Part shown: positions 29,201 to 47,672 of the stretch, one piece after another | Layout of the letters: each line of letters starts with the position of its first letter | Position numbering within the stretch: the first letter of the stretch is position 1 | The notes under the pieces: model-generated | Told to the model about the DNA's origin: nothing | Databases searched by the model: none | The model's input: the letters and a program-made list of their open reading frames with translations, nothing else | Position numbers and translations under genes: made by a program | Assembly (NCBI GenBank): GCA_022821985.1 | Contig: JAJECP010000027.1 | Span: 1 to 64,000, forward strand | Source of the DNA: Acidimicrobiia bacterium | Lineage (GTDB): Bacteria; Actinomycetota; Acidimicrobiia; Acidimicrobiales; Poriferisodalaceae | DNA length: 64,000 nucleotides | Direction of reading: 5' to 3'

Positions 29201-32200
29201 GCGGGCCGCCGCCCTCGGTGACCGCGCCCGACGCCGACACTGACAGGTTGACGGGCACCACTGCGGTGTCGGTGATGTCGGCGGCGGCGACACGGCCCGG
29301 CAGGTAGCCGTCGCTCAGCCCGGTCGCCCCGGCCTGGAGCAGCAGCAGTTCCTCGCCTTGGTGAACCCGGCCCTCTGCGGTGCGGTCGGCTACCGCGGTG
29401 AGCCGGATCGATCCCTGCGTCTGCCCGTCGGGGACCACGATCGTGCCTGCGGTGGCGCCGCCGAGCACATAGTCGGCCGCTGCGGCGTCGCTGTCGGCCG
29501 CTCTGACCACCGGCACCACCACATCGGCGCCCGACGCTGCTGCGGGCAGCGTGGCTGTGAGCGTCACCGCCGAGCCCTCCGCGACCGTCGTGGCAGACAG
29601 CGACAGATCCACCCGCTCATCGCTGGTGGAGTTGCTGCGGATGACCACCGTCGCCTCGCTGGCCGAAGCCGTGTGGCCTGTGGGCAGATGCTCAGGCACC
29701 GGCGTCACATAGAACAGCTTGTTCGACGACGAGGTCGTGTCGGCGGCGATCGGCACCCGCAGCCTCACCCTGCGCTCGCCTGCGGGAATCGTGATCTTGT
29801 CGCCGACCCCGTGTACCGCCGTGAAATCGGTGCCCGCCGCCGCCGTCAAATCGCGGAACGTGAAATACACGTCCACATCGGACCCCAGCGCACGCGACAG
29901 CACCGCCAGCATCAACACCTCACCGGCGCGCTCGTCCACCTGATAGGAGGTTCCGCTGAACGAGAACGTGTATTCGTCATCGACGATCGTCATCCGCGCC
30001 CGCTTGACCGAGCCCGCAGTGACCCCCGCAGGCAGGGAGCTCTCCGCGATGCTCAGCGCGAACGTCTCATCAGACGGCTCCAGCACCGAATCCTGGGTTG
30101 TCGCGATCGTCGCCGTCGCAGTCGTCGACCCCGCCGGGATCGTCACCGAGTACGGGCCCGCCGTGAAGTCGGTGCCCGGCACCGCCGTCCCCCTCGCCGA
30201 CGCCAACTGCACCGTCGTGGCAACCGACCGCGCCGCCGACAGCGAAACGACCACAGCGAACGAGTCGCCCTCGGCCGCCTCATAGGTCGCCGCGTCCAGT
30301 TCCACCGTGACGGCCTGGTCCTGCGCTGCCGCCCCGACGATGAGCACCCCCGACAGCGCATACACCGAGCGCAGCTCGTCGGGGTTCGAGGCCGCGCAGT
30401 TCTGCGGAGGATGGGGGTTGTTGACGTTGGGATCGGGGTTGTAGGGGTTGGCCAGCGCGACCGGGCCGAGCGGTGTGTGCAGCGTGGCGCTGGAACCGCT
30501 GAGGTAACCCACTTGTACCCTGTTCACGGGCCGAGGGGGGGAAAAGCCCAGCCCAGAGCCGATTCCGGGATGGCCAAGGCCGATGCACCGCGTCGAGTCG
30601 CCTGAGGGTGTGCCGGTGACCTGTCCTGCGCTGTAGCTGCCGGTCCAGTAGCCGTCGGGGTCGGGGCCTTGGCTGTCGAGGGTGCCGTCGCTGTCGCTGT
30701 CGTATCGGGCGAGGGTGCCGTCGGCGAAGCGGGGGTTCGCCTGGTCGTCCCAGGAGCCGTCGCGGAAGTCGGCGTTGTCGTCGGCCGCCTGCGAGCCGTT
30801 CACCCAGTAGATCGCCTCGCCGCCGCCGCCGCCGAAATCGGCGTGATCGGACGCGTCGGTCCGTTCGCGGTATGCCAAGAATCGGCCGACGACGGCGCGG
30901 AACGACGGGGCGTAGGGCTTGAGCGCGTCCACGCCGTCGTCGCCGAGGCCGGCGCCCACCAGCGCGATCTGCGGCGGCTCGTCGCCGTCGGGCTCGGTGC
31001 AGGCGTCGAGCGACTCGGCCCCATGGCTGTCGAGCGCGGGGCAGAACTGCTCGCCCAGGATGTCGCTGCGGGCGAAGGTGTCGTAGTAGGCCAGATGCGG
31101 GTTGTTGGCGTCGGTCTTGGCCGCGGTCACGTACAGCAGCCGGAACTTGTCGCCCTCGTCGAGGCCCGACGGCAGCAGCGGCCAGTCGGCGGGCACCACG
31201 CCGAGGTCGCCGTCGTCGTCGTCGATGCCGAAGTAGCGCACCGGCGCGCCCTGGGCCGCGAGGCCGCCGCCCAAGTTGGTGCCCGACGCCGCGAACTGCT
31301 GCGCCCTCGCAGTGGCGAGGTTCTCGTACAGGTCCACCTCGATGACCTCGTCGCCGGTCTCGCCGTCGTCGAACCCCGAACGCGGCGTCATCGTGACCGT
31401 CGCGGTCTGCGCCCCTGCGCCCTCGAAGTCGATCCAGCGCAAACCGGCATGGGGCGGGGTCTTGATGTCGACATGGGTGTAGGACACGCCCGTGCCGGTG
31501 GCGGTCATCGTGATGTCGTTGAAGTGCGGCGGGTACTCCACGTTCGCGCCCACCCGCAGGCCCCGCACCGTGCGCACCTGCGCTCCGTTGTCGAGGCCCA
31601 GCAGCCGCACCGGCACCCGCGCCCGCTCGCCCGCCACCAGCGGACGCGACAAGCTCACCGTGAGCGTGTCGGAGGTGGACGCGTCGCCCTCGACCATCAC
31701 CTGGGTGGCGGCGCCCGCAGACGATCCGCCGCCCGACAGGCTCACCGTGGTCGCATCGTCATCGATGTGCCACACGGTGCGCGTCACGTCGGGGACGTTG
31801 GCGTAATTCCCCGAGCCCGAGACGCTGAACGTGAACGTGACGTACCCGTCGGGGCGGTCGACGTTGTCCCTGGTCACCAGATCGATGCCCTGCTGTCGGT
31901 CCCAGCGGGTGGCGCCGTTGCCGTCCGCGTTGAAGGTCTGAGATCGTCGGCTGCCCAGACTGATAGCGGGGGAATCGCTCGTGACGCTGACCGTCACGTT
32001 GCCCGAGTCGGGCGCCTCTGACAGCTTCACCCCGTAGATCCATTGAGTGTGATCGCTCTCGTCGATCACATTCGAGATGTCGTGAATGACCACACGCGGA
32101 CCGGTCTCGGGCTCGCGCAGGCTGACCCGCGCTGTGAGCGGCGTGTCGGGGGAACAGGCCTCGCCGGCGCACGCGCCGCCATCAAGGCCCGTCGCCTCAA

Positions 32201-33755
32201 ACCCGGTGCCGCCCACGGTGCTGATCGCCAGGTTCTCGCTCGCCGTGTTGCCGTCGTCGCTCACCGCAGCCACAGCGATGCGCGCTGTCTGTTCTGACGG
32301 GCCGGTGAAGGTCACCCGACCCTGCGTCCCGTCCGACGAGTCGGCGTAGGCAATGCCGGCCGGGCTGCCCGTCAGCGAGAGGGTGAAATGGGTGCCCAGC
32401 GTCGCGCCCTCGAACGTCAGCGGCACCGTCAGCGCCTCGCCGGCCGTCAGCGCCCGGCCCAGACTCACCCGCACCTCCGCCTCGTCGTTGGTGCCCTCCC
32501 TGGCGTCGGTGTTGGAAGTCGCCACGACCGACACCGGCGTCGCCTCGTCGTCGTGGGTCACCGTCAGCGGCACAGCGGGAAGCGAGAAACCCGTGTAGAC
32601 GCTCCCGTCGCTCACCTTCAGAACGCGGAAGCTGAGCGTGCCCGACAGCTCCCCGCCGGGCGTGTCCACGATGTTGTCCTGCGCCACCAGCGTCACGACA
32701 TTGAGCGGATTCCCGCCACGCGTCGTCGCACTGGCGAGACTCGCCAAGTTGTAGCCCGACGGCAGGTACATGACGGTGCGCTCGCCGTCTGCCTTCCCCT
32801 TGCCCGTGTACAGCCCCGAGTTGACCCGGGCGATCGCCACATTCTTGCCGCCGCGCACCCGCGCCTGCGTGTCCACCTTGCCCACGATGTACACCGCCTC
32901 GGTGGTGGTGTGAGTGCCGGCGATCTTGATGGAGTCGCGGTGGTCGCGGGCGTCGCCGTTGCGGGTCCTCTCCATCATCGTGGTCGACCCGCCGGTCACC
33001 GTCACCGACGCATTCGTGCCGTTCAGCGTGCTGTCGGCCGCCGGCGCCTTCTTGGTCACCTCCCACTCGCCCAGCACCGACCCGTCGGTACACGTGCTCG
33101 TGCTGCACAACTGCACCCCCAACGTCTCGTCGGCGCCGGTGTCCCTGAAGTTTGCGATGGCAGTCAACTCGAAACTGATCCGCCCCGACTTGTCAGGCTT
33201 CACCTGCGTGCCCACAGCATTGGCATTGCTGCTGGCCTCAAACACGACCCCCAACTGCGTGCCGCTCGGCGGATCAGGGTTGTATTCGTGGAAGATGAGG
33301 GCCTTCACTTCCCAATCGTGGCTCAGCGTGTAGGTACCGCCCCTTCGGAGCCGGAGGTAGTAGGCAGTGGCGTCGGGGACCTCGGAGATCACGAAGTCGC
33401 GCCCATTGGGCTGCGTCAGACCTTCATTGGTGTAGTTGTAACCGCTGCTGGCGGTGATCTCGGTGCGATGCAGGATCGGCCCCGATGCCGAGGTCTGCGC
33501 CCCGGCCTCAGACGGCCCCTCTGTCAACGGCAAGCCCACCGGCACCACCGCCAGCAGCGACCCCGGCAGCACCACCGCCAACGCCGCGGCCAACGACCGC
33601 CGCACGCCGCGACCCTTGCCGCGGCGGCCCCAGCCGCCCCTCACACCAGCAGCCCGCCCACGGGGGGGGGGGGGGGACAAATCAGCCGCGTCGGTCACGC
33701 CAGCGCCCTGCTCAGACGGGGGGGGGGGGACGGAACTCGGGTCACGCCTGCACAA
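14229..33755 (-). CDS. Giant secreted Calx-beta repeat protein (up to 6508 aa)
   Basis: One uninterrupted 19.5-kb frame. The formal start is TTG 33755, but a signal peptide (VRRSLAAALAVVLPGSLLAV, cleavage near AGA-Q87) points to GTG 33644 or GTG 33605. The body is a long array of Calx-beta domains (about 100 residues each, ending in V-T-I-x-D-[DN]-D; acidic Ca-binding loops), so it is probably a Ca-stabilised adhesin or matrix protein. Three copies of a different module lie at about residues 846-1142, 4068-4271 and 4896-5130. A set of three other tandem repeats (SEPLNDVV...STDGGTSW...IWSTTQTV) lies at about 3180-3575. The C terminus ends in TDTITITITD with no LPxTG or membrane anchor, so the mode of surface attachment is unknown. 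Poly-C tracts lie at the 5' end. Nothing next to it encodes a dedicated secretion system. Confidence 0.85.
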   Translation of the reverse strand: MCRRDPSSVPPPPSEQGAGVTDAADLSPPPPRGRAAGVRGGWGRRGKGRGVRRSLAAALAVVLPGSLLAVVPVGLPLTEGPSEAGAQTSASGPILHRTEITASSGYNYTNEGLTQPNGRDFVISEVPDATAYYLRLRRGGTYTLSHDWEVKALIFHEYNPDPPSGTQLGVVFEASSNANAVGTQVKPDKSGRISFELTAIANFRDTGADETLGVQLCSTSTCTDGSVLGEWEVTKKAPAADSTLNGTNASVTVTGGSTTMMERTRNGDARDHRDSIKIAGTHTTTEAVYIVGKVDTQARVRGGKNVAIARVNSGLYTGKGKADGERTVMYLPSGYNLASLASATTRGGNPLNVVTLVAQDNIVDTPGGELSGTLSFRVLKVSDGSVYTGFSLPAVPLTVTHDDEATPVSVVATSNTDAREGTNDEAEVRVSLGRALTAGEALTVPLTFEGATLGTHFTLSLTGSPAGIAYADSSDGTQGRVTFTGPSEQTARIAVAAVSDDGNTASENLAISTVGGTGFEATGLDGGACAGEACSPDTPLTARVSLREPETGPRVVIHDISNVIDESDHTQWIYGVKLSEAPDSGNVTVSVTSDSPAISLGSRRSQTFNADGNGATRWDRQQGIDLVTRDNVDRPDGYVTFTFSVSGSGNYANVPDVTRTVWHIDDDATTVSLSGGGSSAGAATQVMVEGDASTSDTLTVSLSRPLVAGERARVPVRLLGLDNGAQVRTVRGLRVGANVEYPPHFNDITMTATGTGVSYTHVDIKTPPHAGLRWIDFEGAGAQTATVTMTPRSGFDDGETGDEVIEVDLYENLATARAQQFAASGTNLGGGLAAQGAPVRYFGIDDDDGDLGVVPADWPLLPSGLDEGDKFRLLYVTAAKTDANNPHLAYYDTFARSDILGEQFCPALDSHGAESLDACTEPDGDEPPQIALVGAGLGDDGVDALKPYAPSFRAVVGRFLAYRERTDASDHADFGGGGGEAIYWVNGSQAADDNADFRDGSWDDQANPRFADGTLARYDSDSDGTLDSQGPDPDGYWTGSYSAGQVTGTPSGDSTRCIGLGHPGIGSGLGFSPPRPVNRVQVGYLSGSSATLHTPLGPVALANPYNPDPNVNNPHPPQNCAASNPDELRSVYALSGVLIVGAAAQDQAVTVELDAATYEAAEGDSFAVVVSLSAARSVATTVQLASARGTAVPGTDFTAGPYSVTIPAGSTTATATIATTQDSVLEPSDETFALSIAESSLPAGVTAGSVKRARMTIVDDEYTFSFSGTSYQVDERAGEVLMLAVLSRALGSDVDVYFTFRDLTAAAGTDFTAVHGVGDKITIPAGERRVRLRVPIAADTTSSSNKLFYVTPVPEHLPTGHTASASEATVVIRSNSTSDERVDLSLSATTVAEGSAVTLTATLPAAASGADVVVPVVRAADSDAAAADYVLGGATAGTIVVPDGQTQGSIRLTAVADRTAEGRVHQGEELLLLQAGATGLSDGYLPGRVAAADITDTAVVPVNLSVSASGAVTEGGGPLTVTATLAAANDTGSAVAIPIEVRPAGTTAQSGDYTIASSISIPNGQTAGTASFTVNDDSTEEDAETVVVQLGASLPTGYGAAARNLVTVTIADDDTAPVPVVQFRDASLRVFEGAPFEFPYYATIVIEAASAVTEDTVVSFTLGGTAVRGSDYIIPEATSVMSETIPAGETEGQVVLRVLNDDNHEADETIVLTLVDGDGYDLGSQTVHTVTIRDLPDVEFAAATSQGVEGETATVTVRASHAFAVATDVEFTVGGTAKAADYTAPTSPVRFAAGATTATLSIPITADTDSDAGETIILTLVDRNGYDAGKDTRSTTQWKHTITLADPPSVPAVEFSAAVSTAKEGATARVTVETGSAVGADTDVAFTVAGSAQSADFTAPSSPVTIRAGQTSAVIEIPIAKDSPDDSGETIILTLTDGADYDLGSQQTHTVTLAEADPPPDLEFAASVSRGREGATVSVRVDASRAAEAAYAVSYTSTGGTATAGADYTTLSGTFTMPAGAASAAFDVAVAEDSTSDSGETIVLTLTDGADYDLGSRAVHTVTITEVDPPTLVFTQPRVFIAEGGAAQRYGISLSHDPSGSSAALPACDYDPYTADLPRCTASADPVVARVVIASPDVGLLKVFTGGSIVPAGEAVLEFTRRNFADPQFVTVYPEPDDDADSEQNVLIGHSIRGAVDDSAAFRASSPYAAGTTTGGVDDGIALPDMAAYVTDDDAAPGLTVGFVKTAGEKRFETLRVIEEDAGETGFTFDAGTDAGAGEKVAARVRITGGVHGEHYMVKGSGNISVAGPVDDGSRADGAEFIVTFTRPIQLLGVLKIISKDDESRATGGRFLNVELLSAFSPDGSAGVDADPATPDGVGLTLGPQTARVHVLPKDRLIVRQVASGEFAGAGRVEFDGLETDGVKAELTVNDASATIAEGDTTVRHVAVKLSKPPKGTRNVVVTVAVSDPAKLALAGDGDDDGAVTLTFRKTAGSSELTYRGTQTVGFVAKDDADFDDELVDVTVTMASGYGKAHPDGSLVRRFAVRVEDDDAPAGVTVTPGSLTVIEGEKRGAKLPRRTDGRARDHEVAVRLDADPGSGVTVRIEPVLPEGIASSAKTLDFTGGTSGNWQTWQTIGVKARDDDDSDDEELTVTWKRPTVTAGSSAAYSALTAADVASVAVTVLDDDAGVRVSERSVDLVEDATERGGATLAVATYQVVLQRAPAAGETVTVTPVSGDTGAVGFGRNEDGSAVTVHPGVVFTADAWAEPRTVELSPVGDADAADESVTISHTVSTTGSVYSAVSAGPSVRADVLDDDRAAGIVVSSDGEAFSGDGAVLFAHENGDAVGFSVRLAGRPAAELGRFWVDVSGGGGAVVADADPNASGAQTVLPFSQDNWWIPQTVWVTAPDETGGGADAADGLAELSLTAAEVTDSTRAPVGAYGTTPVWVHVYDDEFAGGPTYTVTGSGALIEGLAPAIFTVQGDMVPSSSTDVTLRISETGDFVAAGDEGDQTVTFSTGAVLRHQVPIVDDGTAEPDGTITAALQPGSGYRVGNPSRASIGVTDDGDTGTGAITADLSVSNSGAVTEGGTLTVTVTLGAAATSALSIPVEAAATPSPTASSGDYTLSNSGSVDVAMGATSGTLTFTAADDMIAEDAETLTLELGTLPAGVTAGTAASVAVTITDNDTAGVTVVESGGSTTVSEDPSVTDTYTVRLNSQPLTNVVVRATAPAGVQVDGPAAGRTWLSQLDLTFTPSNWNTPQTVTVRGQNDDIVNAGGKRDVTITQAVQTGDTNGKYTSSTPVANVEVDVTDNDTAGVTVAETSGGTTVSEDGTTTTDAYTVRLTSQPLNNVIVTVTAPAGTQVSTDNRSTWHSSRELTFNPSGSGIWSTTQTVHVRGVNDDIDNANDRRVIDITHGITSGNGDGGGYTTSTTIDAVSVTVTDDSDTAGVTVSKSAMTVSEDQSDSDTYTVRLGSEPLNDVVITATAPDGAQVSTDGGTSWYSSRELTFNPSGSGIWSTTQTVTVRGMQDIIDNPGNRRDVTITHSIAGGNGDGSRYTPSMPSIADVDVRVNDDDPAPTHISLSTNRSTVSEGTASTQVTVTAQVQGAKRFGVAKTVRVSVATTADTTSANYVDMTAVADFDITIPAGAQSHTGTFTIAPDNDMVAEQNNSVAVTGTVTGDSAVTVNPATAIPLTDDDAAPTGITLSASPTSVDEDGGAQSIAVTATVDGATRFGTAQTVAVSVAGHDTAGQVGFTQVTGFSITIPAEAASASESFTLTPDDNVWFESNGEAAISGTSAVTVTGASVTLTNDDAAPSGVTLSVMPMSSTEDGGAQTVTVTATVNGTTRYGTPRTVSVSVAGSSNADAVDFTASTPTAISLAAGQASATTTFTLTPTPDSTDEFDETITVSGSGAGIDAVTAASVTLTDGDDTTVSISAPAGAVAENGGTKDVTLTLSRALVDGETVTVPLDVVGVTAGSGSDYTVALHPASQTGVSLSTSGADSAQQPKVTLTTGAASAVLRFTAVDDSTRTQPYALVRYGTGARTPSGSGVDFTAPTDGPVGWVITDDETGDIVVPQSWALAPSGVQNQGEPRFRLVFASSAERDASSTAIADYDAFIRGLLAEGHAAVVPYAGFFTVLGSTSGVHLRDHASVTGSATMPFYWLGETGDATKRVATSNSQLRGEWIDSETPSSQSVPRDESGTVVSVDANGYFTGSTAAGARSSNPLGSTNVTVGYLNDSGSGRAPLGSGQTAASTATRSFYGLSPTFVRATDPVISVSTSQTSVVEGTTLSFTVTASPAPSKPLTVRLWVLESAGRDMVADGEQMVTFAAGDASRTHTVATAGDNSDEADSEVSLRVLNSAGYTVSTTAEAATVTVTDDDATAVAVSGGGGTVNEGASKDYTVNPGRGLASGESVTVNFAPAGSATQGSDYSITCHGSGVSCAGLGGTTPVLTITGGSGVRNAVIRVSALADSAHPETGETAGISLRSGHASTGSGGAFAVSGTPSTFAIASTAPAALTASFGAATYQATEAAGSRTVTVPVSLSAAAPSGGLSVSYSVSGTATAADRSTPSGTSGTVSFAQGASSASITVTVVDDVLAEGSETIVLTITDGAGYDPGTTAKTTITVADNDAAPTNVVLSVDDDSVGEGDGATTITVTATVQGVTRFADAKTVAVTVTGSGGANVVGFTANPSTFNIAIAAGAQTGTNTFVLTPTDNGTQETDETVTVAGVLSGVTVASETITVTDDDTAAATPVTVTLSAPVGDVTEGAGGAAGRKDLTVTLGRALTGSETVTVPLHVQGATVGSDYSFGLHPATQNGVTLLASNPYSAQHPAVQFSAGASSAVLRFVPVDNGVRTQPLVTINRNSAHQATAGGGATLGTVTGGPFKFMVVDDETGDIVVPSSWGLAPSGLGAGDDFRLLFRTSTTRDATSADIADYDFFVRNVLALAGHSDAVPYAGFFKAFASTRSGSGSTGTTARVHNGMASGHTGHFSGAGDVWADGSTVPNAGNAKGTPVYWLNGAILANNYADLCDQALKSGNGVTTGWDIDDPRSETGSRNIASGVTAGQAHQAWTGTGNACEAYDYPLGNSGNVSRAASHDTTWAFMHEGHSANTQQRPLYGMSPVFKIAGTAVVPVADFVSASSAAAESAGTRSVAVRLVPAPSQSVTVAYTLSGTAARGSDYTISGVTSNSGTVTVGTSGMATIPVAITDDSTPESAETVVLTISGSGSGYTVGTTAPTHTLTITDNDTTGMPRVSVTAGPAVNEGGNAVFTIAASPVPAGAITVRYTVAQNGQFVSSGRLGSGKQRSLSGASATIAIPTVNDSTDEADGSVTVTVTGGFNLGYTVGQPASATVTVRDNDVPAARFAAAVSDADESSGTHLVRVNLSPAPHRGTTVSYTVGGTATRGADFATPGTVSVPAGAAFVDIPVTIIGDSAAEPDETVVLTLTGGAGYRVGSPSAHTVTVADGPAGPPAALPVVTVTAGSRVFEGGADAVFKLSASLPVAGVPVRYTVAQNGEYVASGQLGSGKTQTLTGTGAAIRVPIVNDSVDEASGSVTVTLEAGSGYTVGSPASATVAVFDEDRSVARFAAAASAAGEGSGTHHVRVLFSTAPYRDHFLNYSVLSSREPGSATRGVDFTTAPGVSIFVRAGATYADIPVGIVDDNIAEGPETVTLRLNIGRYYFLDPSAGRTHTLTITDSGTAATPVADFAVAASAAAESAGTRNVEVRLVPAPAQATTVSYALSGTAARGSDYTISGVTSNTGTVTVGTSGTATIPVAIVDDAAAEGAETVVLTLSGGAGYTVGADSPSHTLTIAANDAPVVPQLRVAAGSAVDEGTAATFTVWASPAATGTVTVRYTVAQNGQFVASGRLGSGKTQTLSGASAAISIPTQNDSTDEADGSVTVTLETAGGYTVGSPSAATVTVRDDDVPAAQFAAASSTASESAGTRNVTVRLVPAPAQSTTVSYTLSGTAVRGSDYTISGVTSNTGTVVVGTSGTATIPVAITDDSSAESAETVTLTLNGGAGYDLGNVNRSHTLTITDNDTVGVPQVTVAAGAAVDEGGNAVFTVSANPAPTGTISVRYTVTQNGQFVSSGRLGSNKSRTLSGASATIAIPTVADSTDEADGSVTVMLTAGSGYTVGTPSAATVTVRDDDVPTAQFATASASADESSGIRQVRVNLSPAPHRGITVRYTLGGSATRGTDYTAAGSASAAAGAAFVDIPVTVIDDTGQEPDETVILTLTGGAGYQVGSRSTHTLTITDQDVSPAAAFATAAEQASESTGTHRVTLTVQPAPTAPITVRYTVGGSATRGADYTAPSGTVTVAANATTAAIDIPITHDTANEGDETVVLTLSAPGGSAGYVLGGQSSYTLTILDDDATPTTPRVRFNSSAIRVPEHRPGIYPTVYLDPWPSSDVTIHFAIDTNASTATLNEDYRLYRQLRDPDGDGVYHGTFIADAGNFRRWAKLSVQFIQDGVREGDETIVIYLLNGPGYTLGDMPTDTITITITD
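18360..19075 (-). other. Uncharacterised module, copy 3 in the giant protein
   Basis: Residues about 4896-5130 of the giant protein: GDIVVPSSWGLAPSGLGAGD, FRLLFRTSTTRDATSADIAD, YDFFVRN, VPYAGFFKAFAST, TPVYWLNGAILANNYADL, ...QRPLYGMSPVFKI. It is not a Calx-beta fold by pattern. It directly follows a Calx-beta domain ending in VVDDETGDIVVP. The same order of motifs recurs at 20940-21560 and 30335-31215. Confidence 0.6.
20940..21560 (-). other. Uncharacterised module, copy 2 in the giant protein
   Basis: Residues about 4068-4271: GDIVVPQSWALAPSGVQNQG, FRLVFASSAERDASSTAIAD, YDAFIRGLL, VVPYAGFFTVLGST, FYWLGETGD, GYFTGSTAAG, VTVGYLNDSGSGRAPLGSG, RSFYGLSPTFV. It is shorter than copies 1 and 3 and again follows the linker DDETGDIVVP. 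Confidence 0.6.
23193..23257. repeat. 65-bp exact repeat inside the giant gene, copy A
   Basis: These 65 bases are identical to 23580-23644. Both encode the segment IWSTTQTV and its upstream residues SSRELTFNPSGSG in adjacent repeat units of the giant protein. The flanking bases of the two units have diverged, so the identity suggests recent unequal exchange or gene conversion. Confidence 0.8.
23580..23644. repeat. 65-bp exact repeat inside the giant gene, copy B
   Basis: Second copy of the 65-bp sequence at 23193-23257, spaced 387 bp (129 codons) away. That is exactly one protein repeat unit and in the same frame, so deletion or duplication between the copies would keep the frame. Confidence 0.8.
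30335..31215 (-). other. Uncharacterised module, copy 1 in the giant protein
   Basis: Residues about 846-1142: LGVVPADWPLLPSGLDEGDK, FRLLYVTAAKTDANN, YDTFARSD, YAPSFRAVVGRFLAYRERT, AIYWVNGSQAADDNADF, GYWTGSYSAGQ, VQVGYLSGSSATLHTPLGP, RSVYALSGVLIVG. It is the most divergent and longest copy, with Cys residues in inserted loops. Confidence 0.6.
33662..33676. repeat. Homopolymer tract of 15 G (poly-C on the coding strand)
   Basis: Fifteen consecutive G on the + strand, hence C15 in the leader of the giant gene, 18 nt upstream of the GTG 33644 candidate start. In the formal frame it encodes a Pro run (LSPPPPRG). Such tracts mutate by slippage. Confidence 0.75.
33718..33729. repeat. Homopolymer tract of 12 G (poly-C on the coding strand)
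   Basis: Twelve consecutive G on the + strand, 41 bp from the first tract and in a similar context (GAC follows or precedes, with GTCACGCC nearby in both). An ATG at 33781 reads MRCKRILGGCAGVTRVPS into this tract and meets a stop soon after. With 13 C instead of 12 that frame would join the giant reading frame. Confidence 0.75.
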
Positions 33756-37749: not shown

Positions 37750-40591
37750 GAAGACGCTCCCCCGCCGGATCGAAATGGGCGTGATGGTCGATCACCGTGG
37801 CGCCGATGCGCTCCCCAGACTCCAGCAGCACCGTCAGCTTCGTGCCGCCCACGGCCAGGTCGGGCTCCACCTGGCCGAGGCAGATCGACCGGTTCAGCGT
37901 CGGCGAGTAGCGCGACGAGGTGATCCGGCCCAGGATCTCGTTGGTGTCGCCCCGCACGATCTGCGCGGCCTCTTCGGGCACCACGTCGGGATCGTCGGGC
38001 TGGATGGCCACGACCATCGGGAGCGACCGGTCGGCCGCCCAGGCCAGCTCTGGCTTGCCGGCGAAATCGTCCTTGTCGAGCTTGATCAGCGACCCCAAGC
38101 CGGTGCTGGGTCCCAGCGTCAGCCCGTCGGTGTCCTGGCCCACGATGAAGTGCCCCTTCTCGAGGCGCATGATGCGCTGGCCTTCCAGGCCGAACGGCGC
38201 CACGCCGAGATCGCTGCCGGAATCCATGAGGGCTTCCCAGACATGCAGGCCGTGACCTGCAGGCACGTGCAGCTCGAACGACAGCTCGCCGGTGAACCCG
38301 ATCCGCCACATGAAGCAGCCCGCCACGCCCGCCACCGTGGCTTGGTGGACGGTCATATACGGGAATGCCTCGGCGTCGAGGTCGACACCCTCGCAGACCC
38401 TGCTCATGAGCTCGCGAGACTTGGGCCCCGCCACGTTGATGCTGGCGTACGCCGTGGTGACTGGGGTGACGTGCACCTGCCAGTCCGGGCGCTCGGTCTG
38501 GAGCCAGTTCTCCACCCATTCCCAAACGCCGCCGGCACCCGAGCTGGTGGTGGACATCATGTAGTGGTCCTCGCCGAGGCGACCGGTGACGCCGTCGTCG
38601 AGCACCACGCCGTCCTCGGCGCACATCATCCCGTAGCGCACCCGGCCCACGCCCAGCTTCATCCACTTGTTGACATAGAGCAGGCTCAGGAGCTTTCCCA
38701 CGTCGGGGCCGCGCAGGTCGAGCTTGCCCAGCGGGGTGACGTCGATGAGCCCGACGTTGCGGCGGACATTGCGCACCTCGGCTGCAGGGTCGCCGTAGTG
38801 ATCGGGGCGCAGCCACTGGCCGGCCTGGATGATGGAGACGTTGTTGGCCTCGTGCCAGGGGTGGATCGACGACACCCGCACCGGCTCGAACATCCGCCCG
38901 GCGAGCGCACCGAGCGTGAGCGGCGCGTAGGGGGGCCGCCACACGGTGGTGCCGACCTGGCTGATCGTCTCGCCGCGCGCCTCGGCAATGGCTGCGACGG
39001 TGTTGACCGTTTCCAGCTTGCCCTGCGAGGGTCCCATCGTGGCCGTGGTGTAGCGCTTGGCCAGCTCCACCGAGTCGTAGCCCTCGTGCGCGGCGGCCAC
39101 CAAGTCCTTGGAGCTGATGTCCTCGGACATGTCCACCATGCCGTGGGTGTCGGCGCGGTAGAGCTCGGGATGGGGGTCGCGGCCGAGCGGTGCCCGTTCG
39201 TCGGGTGCGGGGGCGGGCTCGTCGCCGTCGACCGGCAGTGCCCGAGCGGTGCGCGACTGCAGGCGATGGCGGACCGCCGCGGCACGGGCTGCGGCGAGGC
39301 GTCCTGTGGCGGCGCCATGCTGACGCAGCCCGTCAAGATCGGCGTCGCCGGCGAGCCCGCCCGTCGCCAGCACATTGCTGGGGGGGTCGGACGGGAAGAA
39401 CCTGGCTGCGGCGGGGTCATAGACGGGACGGTCGCCTGCCATGTTGAGCAGCGATGTCGGCGCCGTCCAGCCGGCTGCTACCACGAGCAGATCGGCGCCG
39501 ATGGAGGCTCCGTCGGCTACGACTGCGTCGACCGCCCGCGACGAGCCGCGGGTCGAGCTGATGCTGCCCCCGGTGCGACCGTCGATGACGGCAGCGATCT
39601 CGGTGCCCACCCGTTCCAAGTCGGCGACCGCGGCGTCTCCCTCGGCATTCGCACTGAACACCACCGCCCGCTCGCCCGGCTTGACGCCCCAGAGGTTCAC
39701 CAGGCGACGTGCTGCGCCCGAGGTGATGACGCCGGGCCGGTCGTTGCCCTCGAACACGTAGGGACGCTCGATCAGGCCGGGCGCTGCCACCAGCGTCTTG
39801 GCGCGGGCCTTGATGAGACGCTCGACTGCGATCGGGTGGTTGCGCTGGACGATGCCGAGCCAGTTGTCCTCATACCGACCGGTCACGGTCGAGTCGGTCA
39901 GCACCTCGACATCGGAAGCGTCCAGCGCAGTGCGCAGCTCGGCGAGCGCGGCCTGATCGGCGGCAGCGCTCGAGTAGCGCAGATGGCCGCCCACGCTGTG
40001 CTCATGGGAGACCAGCATCACGCTGGCGCCCGCGCTGCTGGCGGCCAGCGCCGCCTCGATGCCGGCCGGGCCTGCTCCGGCCACCACCACGTCGGGGTGC
40101 GTGTAGCGCTTGTCGTGGTAGGCGTGCGGGGTGTCGAGGTCGATCTTGCCGCCCGGGGCGAACGTGGCCAGCACCCGCTCGTAGGTCGGCCACAGCCACT
40201 GCGGCCGCATGAAGGTCTTGTAGTAGAAGCCGGCCGTCAGGAACCGCCCGAGCAGACCGTTCGCCGCCTTGATGTCGCGGTTCAGCGACGGCCACGCATT
40301 CTGCGAGCGGACGTCCATGCCGCTCTCCAGCAAGCGGTGGCCGGCCCGCACGTTGGGGTCGTCGCCCACCTGGACCATCAGGTTGGGATCCCAGTAGTCG
40401 GCGGTGAGGATGCCCCGGGGCCGGTGGTACTTCATGGAGCGGGAGAAGATCTGCTCTCCAGAAGCGGCCAGGGCAGAGGCGATCGTGTCGCCCTCGAACC
40501 CGCTGAAACGCTTGCCGTTCCAGCGGAAGCGAAGCTTGGCGGCCCGGTCGATCACCTCGGTGGGCTGGACGCCCTGCCGGCTCATCGTCAT
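37742..40591 (-). CDS. soxA: Sarcosine oxidase alpha subunit
   Basis: I place the start at ATG 40591 (MTMSRQGVQPTEVIDR), preceded by AGGAAAGG; the open frame extends to 40918 but overlaps soxD. About 949 residues in family order: N-terminal ferredoxin-like domain (FRWNGKRFSGFEGDTIASAL), a FAD/NAD-binding domain (VVAGAGPAGIEAALAASSAG), and a C-terminal aminomethyltransferase (GCV_T) domain beginning around PYAPLTLGALAGRMF that binds tetrahydrofolate. It binds NAD and part of the FMN site by family knowledge. It is full length. Confidence 0.93.
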   Translation of the reverse strand: MTMSRQGVQPTEVIDRAAKLRFRWNGKRFSGFEGDTIASALAASGEQIFSRSMKYHRPRGILTADYWDPNLMVQVGDDPNVRAGHRLLESGMDVRSQNAWPSLNRDIKAANGLLGRFLTAGFYYKTFMRPQWLWPTYERVLATFAPGGKIDLDTPHAYHDKRYTHPDVVVAGAGPAGIEAALAASSAGASVMLVSHEHSVGGHLRYSSAAADQAALAELRTALDASDVEVLTDSTVTGRYEDNWLGIVQRNHPIAVERLIKARAKTLVAAPGLIERPYVFEGNDRPGVITSGAARRLVNLWGVKPGERAVVFSANAEGDAAVADLERVGTEIAAVIDGRTGGSISSTRGSSRAVDAVVADGASIGADLLVVAAGWTAPTSLLNMAGDRPVYDPAAARFFPSDPPSNVLATGGLAGDADLDGLRQHGAATGRLAAARAAAVRHRLQSRTARALPVDGDEPAPAPDERAPLGRDPHPELYRADTHGMVDMSEDISSKDLVAAAHEGYDSVELAKRYTTATMGPSQGKLETVNTVAAIAEARGETISQVGTTVWRPPYAPLTLGALAGRMFEPVRVSSIHPWHEANNVSIIQAGQWLRPDHYGDPAAEVRNVRRNVGLIDVTPLGKLDLRGPDVGKLLSLLYVNKWMKLGVGRVRYGMMCAEDGVVLDDGVTGRLGEDHYMMSTTSSGAGGVWEWVENWLQTERPDWQVHVTPVTTAYASINVAGPKSRELMSRVCEGVDLDAEAFPYMTVHQATVAGVAGCFMWRIGFTGELSFELHVPAGHGLHVWEALMDSGSDLGVAPFGLEGQRIMRLEKGHFIVGQDTDGLTLGPSTGLGSLIKLDKDDFAGKPELAWAADRSLPMVVAIQPDDPDVVPEEAAQIVRGDTNEILGRITSSRYSPTLNRSICLGQVEPDLAVGGTKLTVLLESGERIGATVIDHHAHFDPAGERLRG

Positions 40592-40652
40592 GCCGCGCTG
40601 CCTTTCCTGCCGTCGGGCTGGGTGCCCCAGAGAGCACCGGGCACACACGCAC

Positions 40653-40925
40653 TCATGCTGCGCCGCCTCGCTTATCACCGGGCAGGGGCGGATCGCGGAA
40701 TTCGTTGGTGGCGGTGTTGCGCTCGATCGAGAACCAGCGGCGGCAGCCCGACGCGCAGTACCAGTTCTCGCGCAGCCAGCCGGCGGGGTTGTCGCGCAGG
40801 TACAGGTAGGCCCGCCATTCGGCCGGCGAGGCTGTGTTGGGGTCGGGACGGGCGTGCGACTCGCCCCCGTACCGGAGGTCGGTCGAGTTGCGTGGACCGC
40901 AGTTGGGGCAAAGGACAAGCAACAT
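40653..40925 (-). CDS. soxD: Sarcosine oxidase delta subunit
   Basis: Ninety residues from ATG 40925: MLLVLCPNCGPRN, RYGGESHARPDPN, EWRAYLYLRDNPAG, ENWYCASGCRRWFSIERNT. The Cys pairs (CPNC and CASGC) match the zinc-binding delta subunit of heterotetrameric sarcosine oxidase. It lies between soxB and soxA with gaps of about 70 and 60 bp in the usual BDAG order. Confidence 0.92.
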   Translation of the reverse strand: MLLVLCPNCGPRNSTDLRYGGESHARPDPNTASPAEWRAYLYLRDNPAGWLRENWYCASGCRRWFSIERNTATNEFRDPPLPGDKRGGAA

Positions 40926-40995
40926 CAATGACCCACCACTGTCGTATCGGCGCCGGTGGGCCTCATGGCCCTGGGGGCAAGCGTCACGCCGGACA

Positions 40996-42306
40996 TCAGT
41001 GGCCCACCGACGCTGCGCCCTTTTCACCCACGAGTTCGCCGTTGTCGAAACGGCTGAGGGCGAAAGCCTCGATCAGCTTGGGCGTGCGGCCTGTAGCGGC
41101 GGCCTCGGCCATCTGCTCGCCGGAGACCGGCGCAGCCTTGAATCCGTAGGTGCCCCAGCCCACATCCACCAGGAAGCCGTCGACGGGTGTGAAGCCCATC
41201 ACCGGCGAGTAGTCGGGGGTCATGTCGCACAGGCCTGACCACTGGCGCAGAATCCGCATACGCGAAACGCCGGGCATCAGCTCGAGCACGTGCCCAGCCA
41301 GTCCCTCGGTGAACTCCAGCGAGCCGCGCACCGAGTAGTTGGCATAGGGGTCGACCGAGGCGCCGAACACCAGCTCGCCCCGGTCGGTCTGGCTCACGTA
41401 GACGTGCAGCGAACCCGAGACCACCACCGTGGGCAGGAACATCTTCACCGGCTCGGTGACGGCGGCCTGCAAGGGGTGGGTGGTGATGGGCAGCCGCACG
41501 CCGGCCATGGTCGAGATGAGCGATGCCCACCCGGCGGTGCAGTTGATGACGATCGGCGAGGAGATGTCGCCGCGGTTCGTGCGAACGCCGGTCACCCGGC
41601 CCCCGGCGCCCTTGCCGTCGGGACCATCGCCGCCCTCGCACAGAATGTCAGTGACCTCGGTCTTCTGGTGCATCTCGACGCCCATGTGGTCCGCCGCCCG
41701 GGCGTACCCCCACACCACCGCGTCGTGGCGAACGACGCCGCCTGGCGGGTGATACAGCGCGCCGTGAATCGGGTAGCGGGGGTGGTCGGAGGTGTCGAGG
41801 CTCGGGCACTCCTTCTTGATCTCGTCGGGGCCGATCACGCTGGAGTTGACGCCGCCGAGCTTGTTGACCTCGGCGCGCCAGTGCATCGTGCGCAGGGAGG
41901 CGTCGGAGTGCGCAAGCGTCAGGTGGCCGCGTTGGCTGAACATCACGTTGATGTTCAGCTCCACCGCCATCTGCTCGTACAGGTGCACCGACCGGTCGTA
42001 GAAGGCCACCCCTTCAGGGGTGAGATAGTTGGAGCGCACGATGGCCGTGTTGCGCCCCGAGCCGCCGCTGCCCAGGTAGGCCTTGTCGAGCACGGCCACG
42101 TTGGTCATGCCGTGGTTGCGGGCCAGGTAGTAGGCGGTGGCCAGGCCGTGCACGCCGCCGCCGATCACCACGGCGTCGTAGGACCGTTGCAGATCGCAGT
42201 CGCGCCACACCCGGGGCCACGATTGGCCCCGGAGGCCCTTCCAGGCCAGCGCCGCAGCCGAGTACTTGGGCGGACGCTTCCGCAGCCGGCCCGCAAGTCC
42301 TGCCAT
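40996..42306 (-). CDS. soxB: Sarcosine oxidase beta subunit
   Basis: 436 residues from ATG 42306 (MAGLAGRLRKRPPKYSA). FAD-binding VVIGGGVHGLATAYYLARNHG is followed by VLDKAYLGSGGSGRNTAIVRS. GGVVRHDAVVWGYARAA contains the His that carries covalent FMN in this family (RHD). The C-terminal VDGFLVDVGWGTYGFKAAPV is the second FAD contact. It oxidises sarcosine. It is the first gene of the soxBDAG unit, divergent from the LysR gene with 96 bp between the start codons. Confidence 0.93.
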   Translation of the reverse strand: MAGLAGRLRKRPPKYSAAALAWKGLRGQSWPRVWRDCDLQRSYDAVVIGGGVHGLATAYYLARNHGMTNVAVLDKAYLGSGGSGRNTAIVRSNYLTPEGVAFYDRSVHLYEQMAVELNINVMFSQRGHLTLAHSDASLRTMHWRAEVNKLGGVNSSVIGPDEIKKECPSLDTSDHPRYPIHGALYHPPGGVVRHDAVVWGYARAADHMGVEMHQKTEVTDILCEGGDGPDGKGAGGRVTGVRTNRGDISSPIVINCTAGWASLISTMAGVRLPITTHPLQAAVTEPVKMFLPTVVVSGSLHVYVSQTDRGELVFGASVDPYANYSVRGSLEFTEGLAGHVLELMPGVSRMRILRQWSGLCDMTPDYSPVMGFTPVDGFLVDVGWGTYGFKAAPVSGEQMAEAAATGRTPKLIEAFALSRFDNGELVGEKGAASVGH

Positions 42307-42402
42307 TGCTCTGCAGGCTAAGCACCCCGCTCGGTGACGAGAAGTATCAGTTTGCAAATAATTCAGATGCACTGCCTCTCAATCGCTTCTACGCTGTGCG
42401 GC
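42307..42402. promoter_or_regulatory. Divergent soxB / LysR control region
   Basis: A 96-bp gap between divergent starts. It contains an AT-rich centre with the perfect palindrome TTTGCAAA at 42351-42358, a plausible LysR-type binding site that could act on both directions. The coordinates of any promoter boxes are not clear. Confidence 0.5.
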
Positions 42403-43299
42403 GTGAACCTGCAGCGCCTGCGCTACTTCGTCACCGTGGCCGATGAGCTGCACTTCGGCCGGGCCGCGCAGCGACTGCACATGTCCCAGCCGCCGCTGAG
42501 CCAGCAGATCCGGCAGCTCGAGCGCGAGCTCGACACCGCACTGTTCGACCGCAGCACCCGGCGGGTCACGCTCACCGAAGCCGGACGGTTCCTCTATCCC
42601 GAAGCGCTTCGACTGCTGGCGGCCGCGGACGGCGTGGAGCGCCTCATGTCGCAGCGCCGCGAAGGTCACACGGGCACGCTGCGGGTCGGCTTCGTCGACT
42701 CGGCTGCCTACGAGGTGATGCCGCGCGTGCTGGCCGAGTACCGCCGGCGACGGCCCCGGGTCGACTTCGAGCTGCACACGCTGAGCTCCGACGAACAGGT
42801 CAAGGCGCTGCGCGCCGGACGCATCGATCTGGGCATCGGCAGGGCCGCCGGCGACGCCGACCAGGTGGAGGCGACCCTGGTGATGAACGAGCGGCTGCTG
42901 CTGGCCGCGGGCGGCGCTCACCGGCTGGCCCGGCAGCGGGCTGCAGCGCTGCGCGATCTGTCCGGCGAGCCGATCATCGGCTTCGACCGGGGAGTGTCGC
43001 CCAGCCTCCACGCCGTGCTGGCCGGGATGTTCAGCGCCCAAGGCGTCGCCTACGACCCCATGATCGAGGCCACCGAGTACACCACCATCCTCGGATTCGT
43101 GGCTGCAGGCGAGGGCGTCGCCATCGTGCCCTCCAGCGTGCAGACGTTCCGGCCGCCAGGCCTGCACTACGTGCCGATCAGCGACGACGCCGCCTCGGTC
43201 CCCCTGCTGCTGCTCACCCGCTCCGGCGAACCCCTGCCGCTGGTCACCCAAGCCCTCGACCTCGTCACCGAGCTCTACAGCCAAGCGTCGGCGGCCTGA
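42403..43299 (+). CDS. LysR-family transcriptional regulator
   Basis: GTG 42403 gives the canonical LysR N terminus (VNLQRLRYFVTVADELHFGR; the start is preceded by 23 untypical residues in the longer frame). The winged helix-turn-helix contains AAQRLHMSQPPLSQQIRQLE, followed by the linker helix LFDRSTRRVTLTEAGRFLY. The C-terminal effector domain runs to residue 298 with GTLRVGFVDSAAYEVMP and VAIVPSSVQTF. Divergence from soxB makes it the likely regulator of the sarcosine oxidase unit; the inducer is unknown. Confidence 0.88.
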   Translation: MNLQRLRYFVTVADELHFGRAAQRLHMSQPPLSQQIRQLERELDTALFDRSTRRVTLTEAGRFLYPEALRLLAAADGVERLMSQRREGHTGTLRVGFVDSAAYEVMPRVLAEYRRRRPRVDFELHTLSSDEQVKALRAGRIDLGIGRAAGDADQVEATLVMNERLLLAAGGAHRLARQRAAALRDLSGEPIIGFDRGVSPSLHAVLAGMFSAQGVAYDPMIEATEYTTILGFVAAGEGVAIVPSSVQTFRPPGLHYVPISDDAASVPLLLLTRSGEPLPLVTQALDLVTELYSQASAA

Positions 43300-45413: not shown

Positions 45414-46343
45414 TCAGCCGGTGATGGCGTCGAGAGTTTCCTCGCTGGGAGCGAAGTAGAAGGAACCGGAGGCCGGGTTCGAGAAGTCGGTGATGGCGTC
45501 GCGCACGCCATTGGCATCGTCAAGCCCGTACATCCGGCGCAGGCGGCGCCGCAGCGGTGCCTGGTCCTTGCAGAACGCCATGAAGTACAGCCCCACGGTG
45601 CCGTCGTGGAATGCGTACGGCGTGGAGCGGCGGGCGATCTCGTTGATCTTGTCGCTGCCCTCGTTGCCATGGTTGCCGTCCGCGCGCAGCTCCACATGGC
45701 TCAGGTGGCTGTAGGGCTCCTGGCTGTCGGTCTTGTCGGTCTCGGGGAACTTCTTGCGCCCGAAATTCTTCTCCTGCTGCTCATCGGAGAGCGCGTTCCA
45801 GCCGTCGAGGTCGTGCACCCAGCGCTGGGCGATGATGTGGCTGCCGCCTGCGCCCGCGTCGCCGTCGGGCACGATGGCCACGGCGGGCTGGTCCTCGTCG
45901 GCGGGGTTGCCGGTGCCGTCCTTGAAGCCGGTCATGTCCAGCGAGTCGCCGTAGATGAACGTGGGCGTCTCACGAGCGACGGCCATGTGGCCCGCCAGGG
46001 CGGTACGGGCGTCGTACTGCGCCTTCCACACCTTGTCCTTGTCGTCGTGGTTCAGCCACAGCAACAGCTCTTCCTGTGTGCCCTTGGCTTCGCGCCCGGA
46101 GCCGTCCTCGGACTGGACGGTCACGTAGGCCTGGAAGTCGTCGGGCACGTCATCGGTCAGCTCCGGCAGCAGGCCCGGTCCGAAGCCGAGCGTCAGGTTG
46201 ATGCCCTGCGCGTCGCACGCAGCCCGCAGGTCGGCAAGGACGGACGTGACCACACCGAGATCCGCGCCCTCGACGCGGCTCAGGTGGACGTACCACTGGT
46301 TGGTGCCCATCTCGTTGAAGATGGCCTTCTGCGGCGTTGGCAT
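45414..46343 (-). CDS. Dyp-type (dye-decolorising) haem peroxidase
   Basis: 309 residues from ATG 46343, with AAGGAG 8 bp upstream. Distal haem motif GFKDGTGNP contains the G-x-x-D-G signature (catalytic Asp), and WVHDLDGWNAL and SHVELRA contain candidate proximal and ligand residues; the family uses His as axial ligand. There is no Tat signal, so it is probably cytoplasmic. The open frame extends upstream to 47516 but overlaps the divergent AhpD-like gene, so I use the internal start. It reduces H2O2 with organic donors and is divergent from the AhpD-like selenoprotein candidate. Confidence 0.85.
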   Translation of the reverse strand: MPTPQKAIFNEMGTNQWYVHLSRVEGADLGVVTSVLADLRAACDAQGINLTLGFGPGLLPELTDDVPDDFQAYVTVQSEDGSGREAKGTQEELLLWLNHDDKDKVWKAQYDARTALAGHMAVARETPTFIYGDSLDMTGFKDGTGNPADEDQPAVAIVPDGDAGAGGSHIIAQRWVHDLDGWNALSDEQQEKNFGRKKFPETDKTDSQEPYSHLSHVELRADGNHGNEGSDKINEIARRSTPYAFHDGTVGLYFMAFCKDQAPLRRRLRRMYGLDDANGVRDAITDFSNPASGSFYFAPSEETLDAITG

Positions 46344-46556
46344 CTGTGCTCCTTGAGGGGTTCGATGGTGCAAGCGAGAGCGACCCCGCCGCGCAGCCCG
46401 AGCGGCGACACGGCGAGATTGCGGGGCTGATCGTAGGCCAACCGGAACGGCGCGCGCACCGCCGGTTCCCGCTCTTCGAACGGGCCGCTGTGTGGCTGTT
46501 CCGCGTGTGCCAGCATGTGGCCACCGACACTGTCCCCGGCCAGCGGAGATCCGGCT

Positions 46557-47672
46557 ATGAGCATCGCAGCGCCACAGCGCACGTATGACACTGAGCTGCC
46601 TATTCGGGATGATCTGGGAGCTGCGCATGGCGAGATCGCGGCCCGCTGGTCGAGGCCCGGCACCTGGTGGACCGGCGAGCAGCGTGCCGAGATCGTGCGG
46701 CAGGTGCGCGCCGCCCGGGACCATCGCGCCGACGATGGCAGCGTGCTGCCGCCGTGGGTGCAGCCCAGCAGCATCGAGGGCCTCGTCGATGCTGACGGCC
46801 CGCTGCGGGCCGCTGCAGTCGATGCGGTCTGGCGCATCACCAACCACCCGGGAACGCTGACCGGAGACTGGTACCAGTCGATCATCGAACGCGGCGTCGA
46901 CCCGCTGGCCTATGTGGAGCTGGTGGGGCTGGTGGCGCAGTCCAATTGCGTCGATCGCTTCGCCGACGCGCTGGAGCTGCCGCGCATCGAACTGGACGAG
47001 CCCGCCGACGGCCCGCCGGGGCGGGAAGGCGCGCCTGCGGCCGTGAAGTACCACTGGGTGCCCACTGCCGACATCAAGATGCCGAACGTCATCAAGGCGC
47101 TCAGCGCCGTGCCGGCGGAGAACGAGGCGCTGTTCATCCTCTCCGACGCCCAGTACGTGCCCATGGAGCGTGTGCGCGGCGATGTGGTGTCCGACCGCAA
47201 CTCGCTCACCCGGCCCCAGATCGAGGTGCTCGCAGCGCGGACATCGAAGCTCAACGAGTGCTTCTACTGAACGTCCGCCCACGCGATGCTGCTCGGTCTG
47301 AGCGGCCAGAACAAGGACATGGATGTCAGCTACGAAGCCGTCAACGGCTCCGGCGATGGCGACGGCGGTGTGCCCCACGGCGCGCTGCTGGCGCGCTTGG
47401 CCGAGGCGATGTGGGAAGGAGACCGCGAAGCCACGGCTGCGGCGCGAGCCGCGGTGGTCGACGCCGCGGGCGCCGACGTGATGGTCGATGCCGTGGCGGT
47501 CAGCGCCAACTTCCACATGATGACCCGGGTCGCCGACGGCACCGGCACCCCGCTGGATCCAGGCACCTACGACATGTCGGCGCCGGTGCGCGAGGCCTGC
47601 GATCTCAACGGGTTCGTGTCGCGCCGCGATCCCCAGGGCGACCGCCAGACCGCCCAGGGAGCGTCGAGCTGA
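46557..47672 (+). CDS. AhpD-like (carboxymuconolactone decarboxylase fold) protein, predicted selenoprotein with in-frame TGA
   Basis: From ATG 46557 (GGAG 8 bp upstream) the frame runs to TGA 47268-47270 after ...SKLNECFY, then continues in the same frame for 134 codons (NTSAHAMLLGLSGQ... is wrong only at the stop) to a second TGA ending at 47672. Reading the first TGA as Sec gives 371 residues with C-F-Y-U-T-S-A-H at about 235-242, i.e. C-x-x-U-x-x-x-H. AhpD-family proteins carry C-x-x-C-x-x-x-H at this site, so Sec replaces the resolving or attacking Cys. A hairpin with loop GGUCU follows at 24 nt. The N-terminal half is a second CMD-like segment without the Cys pair. The likely role is thiol-peroxide reduction or a related redox step. 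Annotation software would report two truncated genes (46557-47270 and 47286-47672). Confidence 0.8.
47268..47306 (+). promoter_or_regulatory. Predicted Sec codon (UGA) and bacterial SECIS hairpin
   Basis: UGA is at 47268-47270. Twenty-four nucleotides later the loop GGUCU (47295-47299) is closed by a 7-bp stem, GCUGCUC (47288-47294) with GAGCGGC (47300-47306), including one G-U pair. The E. coli fdhF SECIS, which recruits SelB, has the same GGUCU loop sequence, 18 nt after its UGA. Loop size, leading GG and distance fit what I recall of the bacterial SECIS consensus. It is coding sequence at the same time. Confidence 0.75.

Follow-up and report, generated by a model that had tools for sequence, protein, structure and literature searches.

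An AhpD-related protein from an Acidimicrobiia bacterium with an in-frame UGA predicted to encode selenocysteine

A UGA codon that interrupts a conserved gene of an Acidimicrobiia bacterium is almost certainly decoded as selenocysteine (Sec). The gene lies at positions 46557 to 47672 on the forward strand of the window, by which we mean the whole stretch of 64,000 nucleotides that was analysed, and it is delimited by its reading frame, its family match and its pattern of selection. The UGA, at positions 47268-47270 of the same strand, corresponds to residue 238 of a predicted product of 371 amino acids including one Sec, an assignment drawn from translation and from the conservation of the codon in relatives. 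By its sequence, the product is a further member of the catalogued selenoprotein family NF041238. We consider it very probable that the explanation holds as a whole, namely that an NF041238 selenoprotein acquires its Sec under the direction of a SECIS element and carries an AhpD-type redox site within a pair of AhpD lobes.

Translation of the joined frame bears out the original prediction of a single frame of 371 codons whose sole internal break is the TGA at 47268-47270; the frame then ends in a TGA stop at 47670-47672. The internal TGA occurs in the motif LNECFY-U-TSAH, three residues past Cys235 (TGC, 47259-47261, forward strand), which motif and alignment point to as the partner cysteine of a CxxU site. 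Upstream, the frame is open as far back as 46437, so that the ATG at 46515 is also a possible start, and homology begins at approximately residue 14-16 of the 371-residue protein. As had been anticipated, ordinary annotation splits the gene, with translation table 11 yielding one open reading frame of 251 codons beginning at ATG 46515 and a separate one of 128 codons. Such a division is also what a nonsense mutation would produce, leaving either a pseudogene or a short protein ending at 47270. However, the sequence past the TGA contains the catalytic histidine and most of the AhpD lobe, and it bears the marks of purifying selection, as does the sequence before it: among ten sequences, comprising the window and nine close relatives (L057-L064 and L067), dN/dS is approximately 0.07 before the TGA and 0.11 after it. 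The low value past the TGA argues that the downstream part is translated. Moreover, the two halves have similar GC3 values (0.86 and 0.88) and a common codon bias, and a single family is matched over residues 16-354 with an E-value of 4.6e-104, indicating that the joined frame did not arise by chance. Composition, selection and family match thus agree with the earlier view that both halves are coding.

The family in question, NF041238 (AhpD_rel_CFYUT), is titled 'alkylhydroperoxidase-related (seleno)protein' in NCBIfam and has a curated cut-off of 175 bits. In a scan of NCBIfam, residues 16-354 aligned with positions 1-356 of its 357-position profile at 348.5 bits, and the CFYU(T) motif with in-frame TGA that characterizes the family is present as CFYUTSAH, with the TGA at 47268. 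TIGR01926 was matched by residues 208-332 at 41.5 bits, under its cut-off of 81.8, and TIGR04030 and TIGR00778 were also matched, each under its own cut-off. A Pfam scan of the read-through protein at an E-value of 0.001 returned no family; the CMD family PF02627 scored 17.1 bits (E 0.0054), which is under its gathering cut-off of 23 bits and does not place the protein in that family, and it matches 28 of 28 aligned NF041238 members at E-values of 1 or less (best 5.9e-07). The alignment of the joined protein to AhpD and CMD families that had been proposed as a check therefore leads to NF041238, with the AhpD catalytic set present.

Together with this full-length match, published listings indicate that the family is already known. 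The available text of a 2026 review (PMC13188914), citing Zhang et al. 2005, places NF041238 among high-confidence predicted selenoproteins, and its Table 1 equates 'hypothetical protein 1' of the Sargasso Sea metagenome with AhpD-related NF041238, with a CxxU site. The same text lists TIGR01926-type AhpD-like selenoproteins, likewise with CxxU, consistent with the earlier statement that AhpD-like selenoproteins are known in bacteria. In the available text of PMC1088965, four 'hypothetical protein 1' sequences are reported with a SECIS element and with function not known, and a table row, taken apart from its column heads, seemingly counts Cys homologues too. The present protein shares with this group a full-length match at twice the cut-off, the CFYU motif, the CxxU site and the SECIS element, and differs in no notable respect from what that portion of PMC1088965 describes; an AhpD pair fold is proposed here. 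With the TIGR01926-type proteins it shares the type of catalytic AhpD lobe and the position of Sec, whereas the 178-position TIGR01926 model covers only the C-terminal lobe and has no room for an N-terminal one.

The TGA is retained across a broad set of relatives. A scan of named genomes recovered 42 loci, of which 34 are actinobacterial (L057-L090, titled mostly as Acidimicrobiia, Acidimicrobiales, Acidimicrobiaceae or Actinomycetota MAGs) and eight are distant AhpD proteins (L091-L098, mostly Bacteroidota by title, plus one unassigned bacterium). TGA occupies the CxxU site in 34/34 of the former, and a Cys codon, TGC or TGT, occupies it in 8/8 of the latter. A sample of the class comprised 395 genomes, 75 of which carry the family at an E-value of 1e-20 or less (74 over the cut-off) and span 17 family labels. 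Their 81 family matches include 80 with one TGA and one with none; counting the window as the 81st, the TGA falls exactly at CxxU in 79 of the 80 further matches, a set that partly overlaps with the 34 loci. The phylum sample of 396 genomes held five matches over the cut-off in four genomes, with one TGA each. The counts of 34/34 and 79/80 indicate that Sec is close to fixed in NF041238, and within the class sample it appears to be almost fixed, at one Cys form per 81 matches. Retention of the TGA on this scale, across 17 family labels, further weakens the explanation by nonsense mutation, which we regard as very improbable.

The lone exception, L179 of genome G639 (C4:32179-33117), has a TGC codon for Cys in the sequence CFYCTLGH. 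This genome still has selA, so its lineage is not clearly without the Sec trait, and L179 may represent either a change from Sec to Cys or an ancestral Cys state. The comparison with homologues that the original prediction called for thus finds Sec nearly throughout the family, with Cys confined to L179 and to L091-L098. Two AhpD-like loci of the phylum sample that score under the NF041238 cut-off, L024 and L027, have a TGA at the site as well (CHYU and CVYU). Some genomes carry more than one copy of the Sec gene, with three in G784 and two or three in G156, G478, G493 and G706.

These data also bear on whether a sequencing or assembly error might have converted a Cys codon into TGA. The two differ by one base, and the assembly, in 41 contigs totalling 3.31 Mb and 89.87% complete, probably represents a MAG like its nearest relatives. 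Nevertheless, the TGA recurs in many assemblies of differing isolate and bin names, and an error of this kind seems vanishingly improbable.

The window belongs to contig C2 and contains no Rfam match and no tRNA, hence no tRNA-Sec; the best Sec-gene matches lie on other contigs, in agreement with the earlier report that selA, selB and selC are absent from the window. The search of the remaining genome that had been recommended recovered selA, selB, selD and a tRNA-Sec with a UCA anticodon. Contig C16 carries three of these together: selA at 40357-41529 (383 bits, over the cut-off); selB at 41586-42647 (274 bits, cut-off 242), with a match that starts 57 nt after that of selA and a second, C-terminal match at 43152-43268 lying within one and the same frame of 673 codons; and the tRNA-Sec at 28028-28119 (66.3 bits), which aligns over the whole Rfam model and to which ARAGORN assigns the UCA anticodon. 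Among seven weaker selB matches, six were taken for other translation GTPases and the seventh is the C-terminal piece of selB. A second tRNA-Sec candidate, on contig C1 (RF01852, 48.4 bits, over the gathering cut-off), was rejected after ARAGORN identified it as tRNA-Ser(TGA). The selD gene lies at C10:4396-5349 (355 bits, over the cut-off). Its frame has an in-frame TGA of its own, at GAGUACK, from which SelD itself is predicted to be a selenoprotein, and the predicted Sec genes of this genome thus number two or more.

A general change of code, in which TGA would stand for another residue such as Trp throughout the organism, would equally leave the frame open, since it remains so whatever residue the TGA represents. 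Yet TGA serves as the stop codon of this very gene and of 30/34 relatives, Cys is found at the site in the single non-TGA member, and tRNA-Sec, SelA and SelB are present, making this explanation extremely improbable. Decoding as Sec also fits the distribution of the machinery in other genomes. Each of the 34 named gene-bearing genomes has at least one of selA (33/34) and tRNA-Sec (32/34). In the class sample, for which the tRNA-Sec search used stricter filters, tRNA-Sec was detected in 60/75 gene-bearing genomes versus 185/320 others (Fisher p 3e-4, uncorrected for relatedness). When only genomes with a completeness of 90% or more and a contamination of 5% or less are counted, the corresponding figures are 44/47 versus 119/220 (p 5e-8, likewise uncorrected), the count of 44 having been obtained by reading two lists against each other. 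Of the 15/75 gene-bearing genomes without a tRNA-Sec match, 12 are under 90% complete; selA is over the cut-off in ten of the 15, is present as fragments in two and gives no match in three.

Downstream of the UGA and still within the coding sequence, comparative sequence data reveal a SECIS-type hairpin whose core, GCUC-GGUCU-GAGC (positions 47291 to 47303, forward strand), consists of a stem, a five-nucleotide loop with an invariant G, and the closing stem. The GCUC arm begins 23 nt past the U of UGA, and the GGUCU loop resembles that of E. coli fdhF. We tested for the core CUC-NG(U/G)NN-GAG(C/U), positioned so that it starts 24 nt past the U of UGA, and found it in 108/110 distinct TGA sequences, the misses being L081 and L150; the loop G is present in 110/110, and a G precedes CUC in 107. 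Translated, the 15-nt stretch that starts at CUC gives 30 distinct pentapeptides across the 110 sequences (28 across the 108), including LGLSG, LSWSS, LRASS, LRESA and LRWSA. Over the hairpin, which has the general form GCUC-NG(U/G)NN-GAG(C/U), synonymous change is reduced (codons +5 to +12), falling to 0.024 in the seven-codon windows starting at codons +5 and +6 versus a mean of 0.304; these windows occupy ranks 3 and 2 of 344, one window of the gene being even lower. The seven codons directly before the UGA are also low, at rank 10 of 344. The hairpin stretch of the analysed DNA has a folding-energy z of -0.95, within the usual range, and RNAalifold found 0/5 pairs changed on both sides, and thus no compensatory pair, as the stem hardly varies. 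The case for a SECIS element consequently rests on invariance despite amino-acid change and on the synonymous dip, which together support the assignment of this conserved hairpin as a SECIS element.

The Cys form L179 is without the hairpin core and folds into some other hairpin. That the TGA is accompanied by a hairpin not present in the Cys form is a further argument against an error having created the TGA. Overall, the Sec machinery, the conservation of the site, the hairpin and the single Cys exception support the contention of the original prediction that this TGA encodes a genuine Sec residue.

The TGA was further proposed to occupy the position of the second Cys of the AhpD site, three residues past the first, and the spacing E-x11-C-x-x-U-x3-H is indeed observed. 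The predicted site consists of Glu223, Cys235, Tyr237, Sec238 and His242, with the spacing characteristic of AhpD. In an alignment of 28 of the 35 sequences at hand, seven having been left out by choice, Glu223, Cys235, Sec238 and His242 are invariant (28/28), and position 237 is Tyr or Phe. In AhpD of M. tuberculosis it is the second Cys that makes the attack, and the CMD/AhpD fold serves several chemistries. The spacing seen here equals that of the Ralstonia 2PRR protein, for which the available text of PMC4674687 gives Glu74, Cys86, Tyr88, Cys89 and His93.

On the comparative evidence, SelB and tRNA-Sec very probably decode the UGA under the direction of the SECIS hairpin within the coding sequence. 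In the resulting enzyme, Sec238 may attack a hydroperoxide or disulfide substrate, Cys235 would then resolve the selenenic acid or mixed selenosulfide, and the ensuing Cys-Sec bond could be reduced by a cellular dithiol donor. On balance, we favour a thiol-dependent reduction of peroxide or disulfide as the activity. Alternatively, the Sec protein might not be a peroxide reductase: it could be an oxidoreductase of the thiol-disulfide type, a partner to a peroxiredoxin in the way that AhpD serves AhpC, or an enzyme resembling dehalogenases, a reading that we rate as possible and somewhat short of probable. The debrominase Bmp8 does appear among the weaker Foldseek matches (E 1.1), whereas the retained AhpD set E-C-Y/F-U-H speaks for the favoured peroxide or disulfide reduction, though nothing separates the substrates.

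The predicted structure of the protein departs in one respect from the original description of the gene as AhpD-like. A C-terminal catalytic AhpD lobe (positions 47052 to 47618, forward strand) is supported by the TIGR01926 match at residues 208-332 and by structure-profile matches that include 3c1l, 6k40, 2pfx and 2prr among eight sequences, and this part of the description stands. The protein is longer than such a description implies, however, and has an additional, apparently dead lobe at its N terminus (46602 to 47051, forward strand), which is AhpD-like by predicted fold (AF2 and Foldseek) and is without a C-x-x-C/U site. The AF2 model of the whole protein has a pLDDT of 89.4 and a pTM of 0.90, and that of N-terminal residues 1-165 has a pLDDT of 89.1. 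The top 20 of 88 Foldseek matches to the N-lobe are all of the AhpD/CMD type (2prr, 3c1l, 6k40, 2oyo and others), with probabilities of up to 0.99 and a weak best E-value of 0.046. For the whole model, the best matches are 2prr and human Sestrin2 (9lvj, 5t0n and 5dj4), the latter over 344-396 columns with probabilities of 0.85-1.00, E-values of 0.02-0.17, TM scores of 0.43-0.44 and rmsd values of 11-13. Every Foldseek E-value, for the whole model and for the N-lobe, exceeds 0.001, and no viral structure was matched at 0.001. Comparison of the two lobes by hhalign gave a probability of 1.5%, with no convincing sequence similarity, and internal duplication as judged by sequence was dropped on that result, leaving the two-lobe proposal to the predicted folds. 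Gly35, Pro66-Trp67, Val120-Glu121 and Gly152 of the N-lobe are invariant in 28/28 members. From these models, the protein is likely to consist of two fused AhpD lobes, of which the N-terminal one is dead and the C-terminal one bears the Sec.

This arrangement is reminiscent of the sestrins, described in the available text of PMC4674687 as a fused AhpD lobe pair with one active and one dead member. In sestrins, however, the active lobe is N-terminal and has a single Cys, whereas the active lobe of the selenoprotein is C-terminal and has CxxU. Likewise, where the sestrin C-terminal lobe has an acidic DDYDY hinge in place of the site (PMC11429811, available text), the selenoprotein retains CxxU. 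With the active lobe at the opposite end and the site kept where sestrins have the hinge, we conclude that the protein is not a sestrin; a sequence profile search at an E-value of 0.001 gave no sestrin match to it. The same portion of PMC11429811 applies the term sestrin-like to fused bacterial AhpD pairs whose N-lobe is without Cys, among them a protein of Corynebacterium ureicelerivorans. By description, the latter resembles the selenoprotein in having two redox residues in the C-lobe and no Cys in the N-lobe, but it has Cys instead of Sec. NF041238 might conceivably be a redox sensor or regulator of sestrin architecture in bacteria, in which the dead N-lobe would bind a ligand or partner and tune the C-lobe, and not a bulk peroxidase, a proposal that we consider doubtful.

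The gene is adjoined by a divergent gene for a Dyp-type peroxidase (PF20628, TIGR01413) at 45414-46343 on the reverse strand. As an operon partner this peroxidase was rejected: tblastn detected it in only 9/34 related loci, all in the closest clade, so it is not a feature of the family. Seven other neighbour queries gave matches only in the closest clade (three to nine loci each), and no conserved operon partner was found among the 34 loci. Clustering of neighbouring open reading frames was abandoned, being dominated by shadow frames of the GC-rich genome. Elsewhere in the window, a 6508-residue open frame on the reverse strand (14229-33755) matches the Calx-beta family PF03160 in each of its halves (E 1.5e-43 and 1.6e-64) and encodes a giant repeat protein, possibly with a surface or adhesion role.

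In literature searches that covered a minority of subscription papers, we found no mention of CFYU in work on AhpD-like selenoproteins and none joining AhpD-like, selenoprotein and sestrin; a search for Acidimicrobi and selenoprotein gave nothing on the topic by title and opening of the abstract. Judged by these searches, three points are apparently new: that Sec is nearly fixed in the Acidimicrobiia members, the consensus for the SECIS element, and the predicted two-lobed fold resembling that of sestrins. The 'hypothetical protein 1' of earlier work thereby gains a proposed fold and mechanism, and the compact SECIS consensus may be used for finding further members. Annotation under table 11, by splitting such genes, readily overlooks a conserved redox protein of Acidimicrobiia. 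Were the doubtful proposal of a redox sensor or regulator true, NF041238 would be the equivalent, in bacteria, of the two-faced design seen in sestrins.
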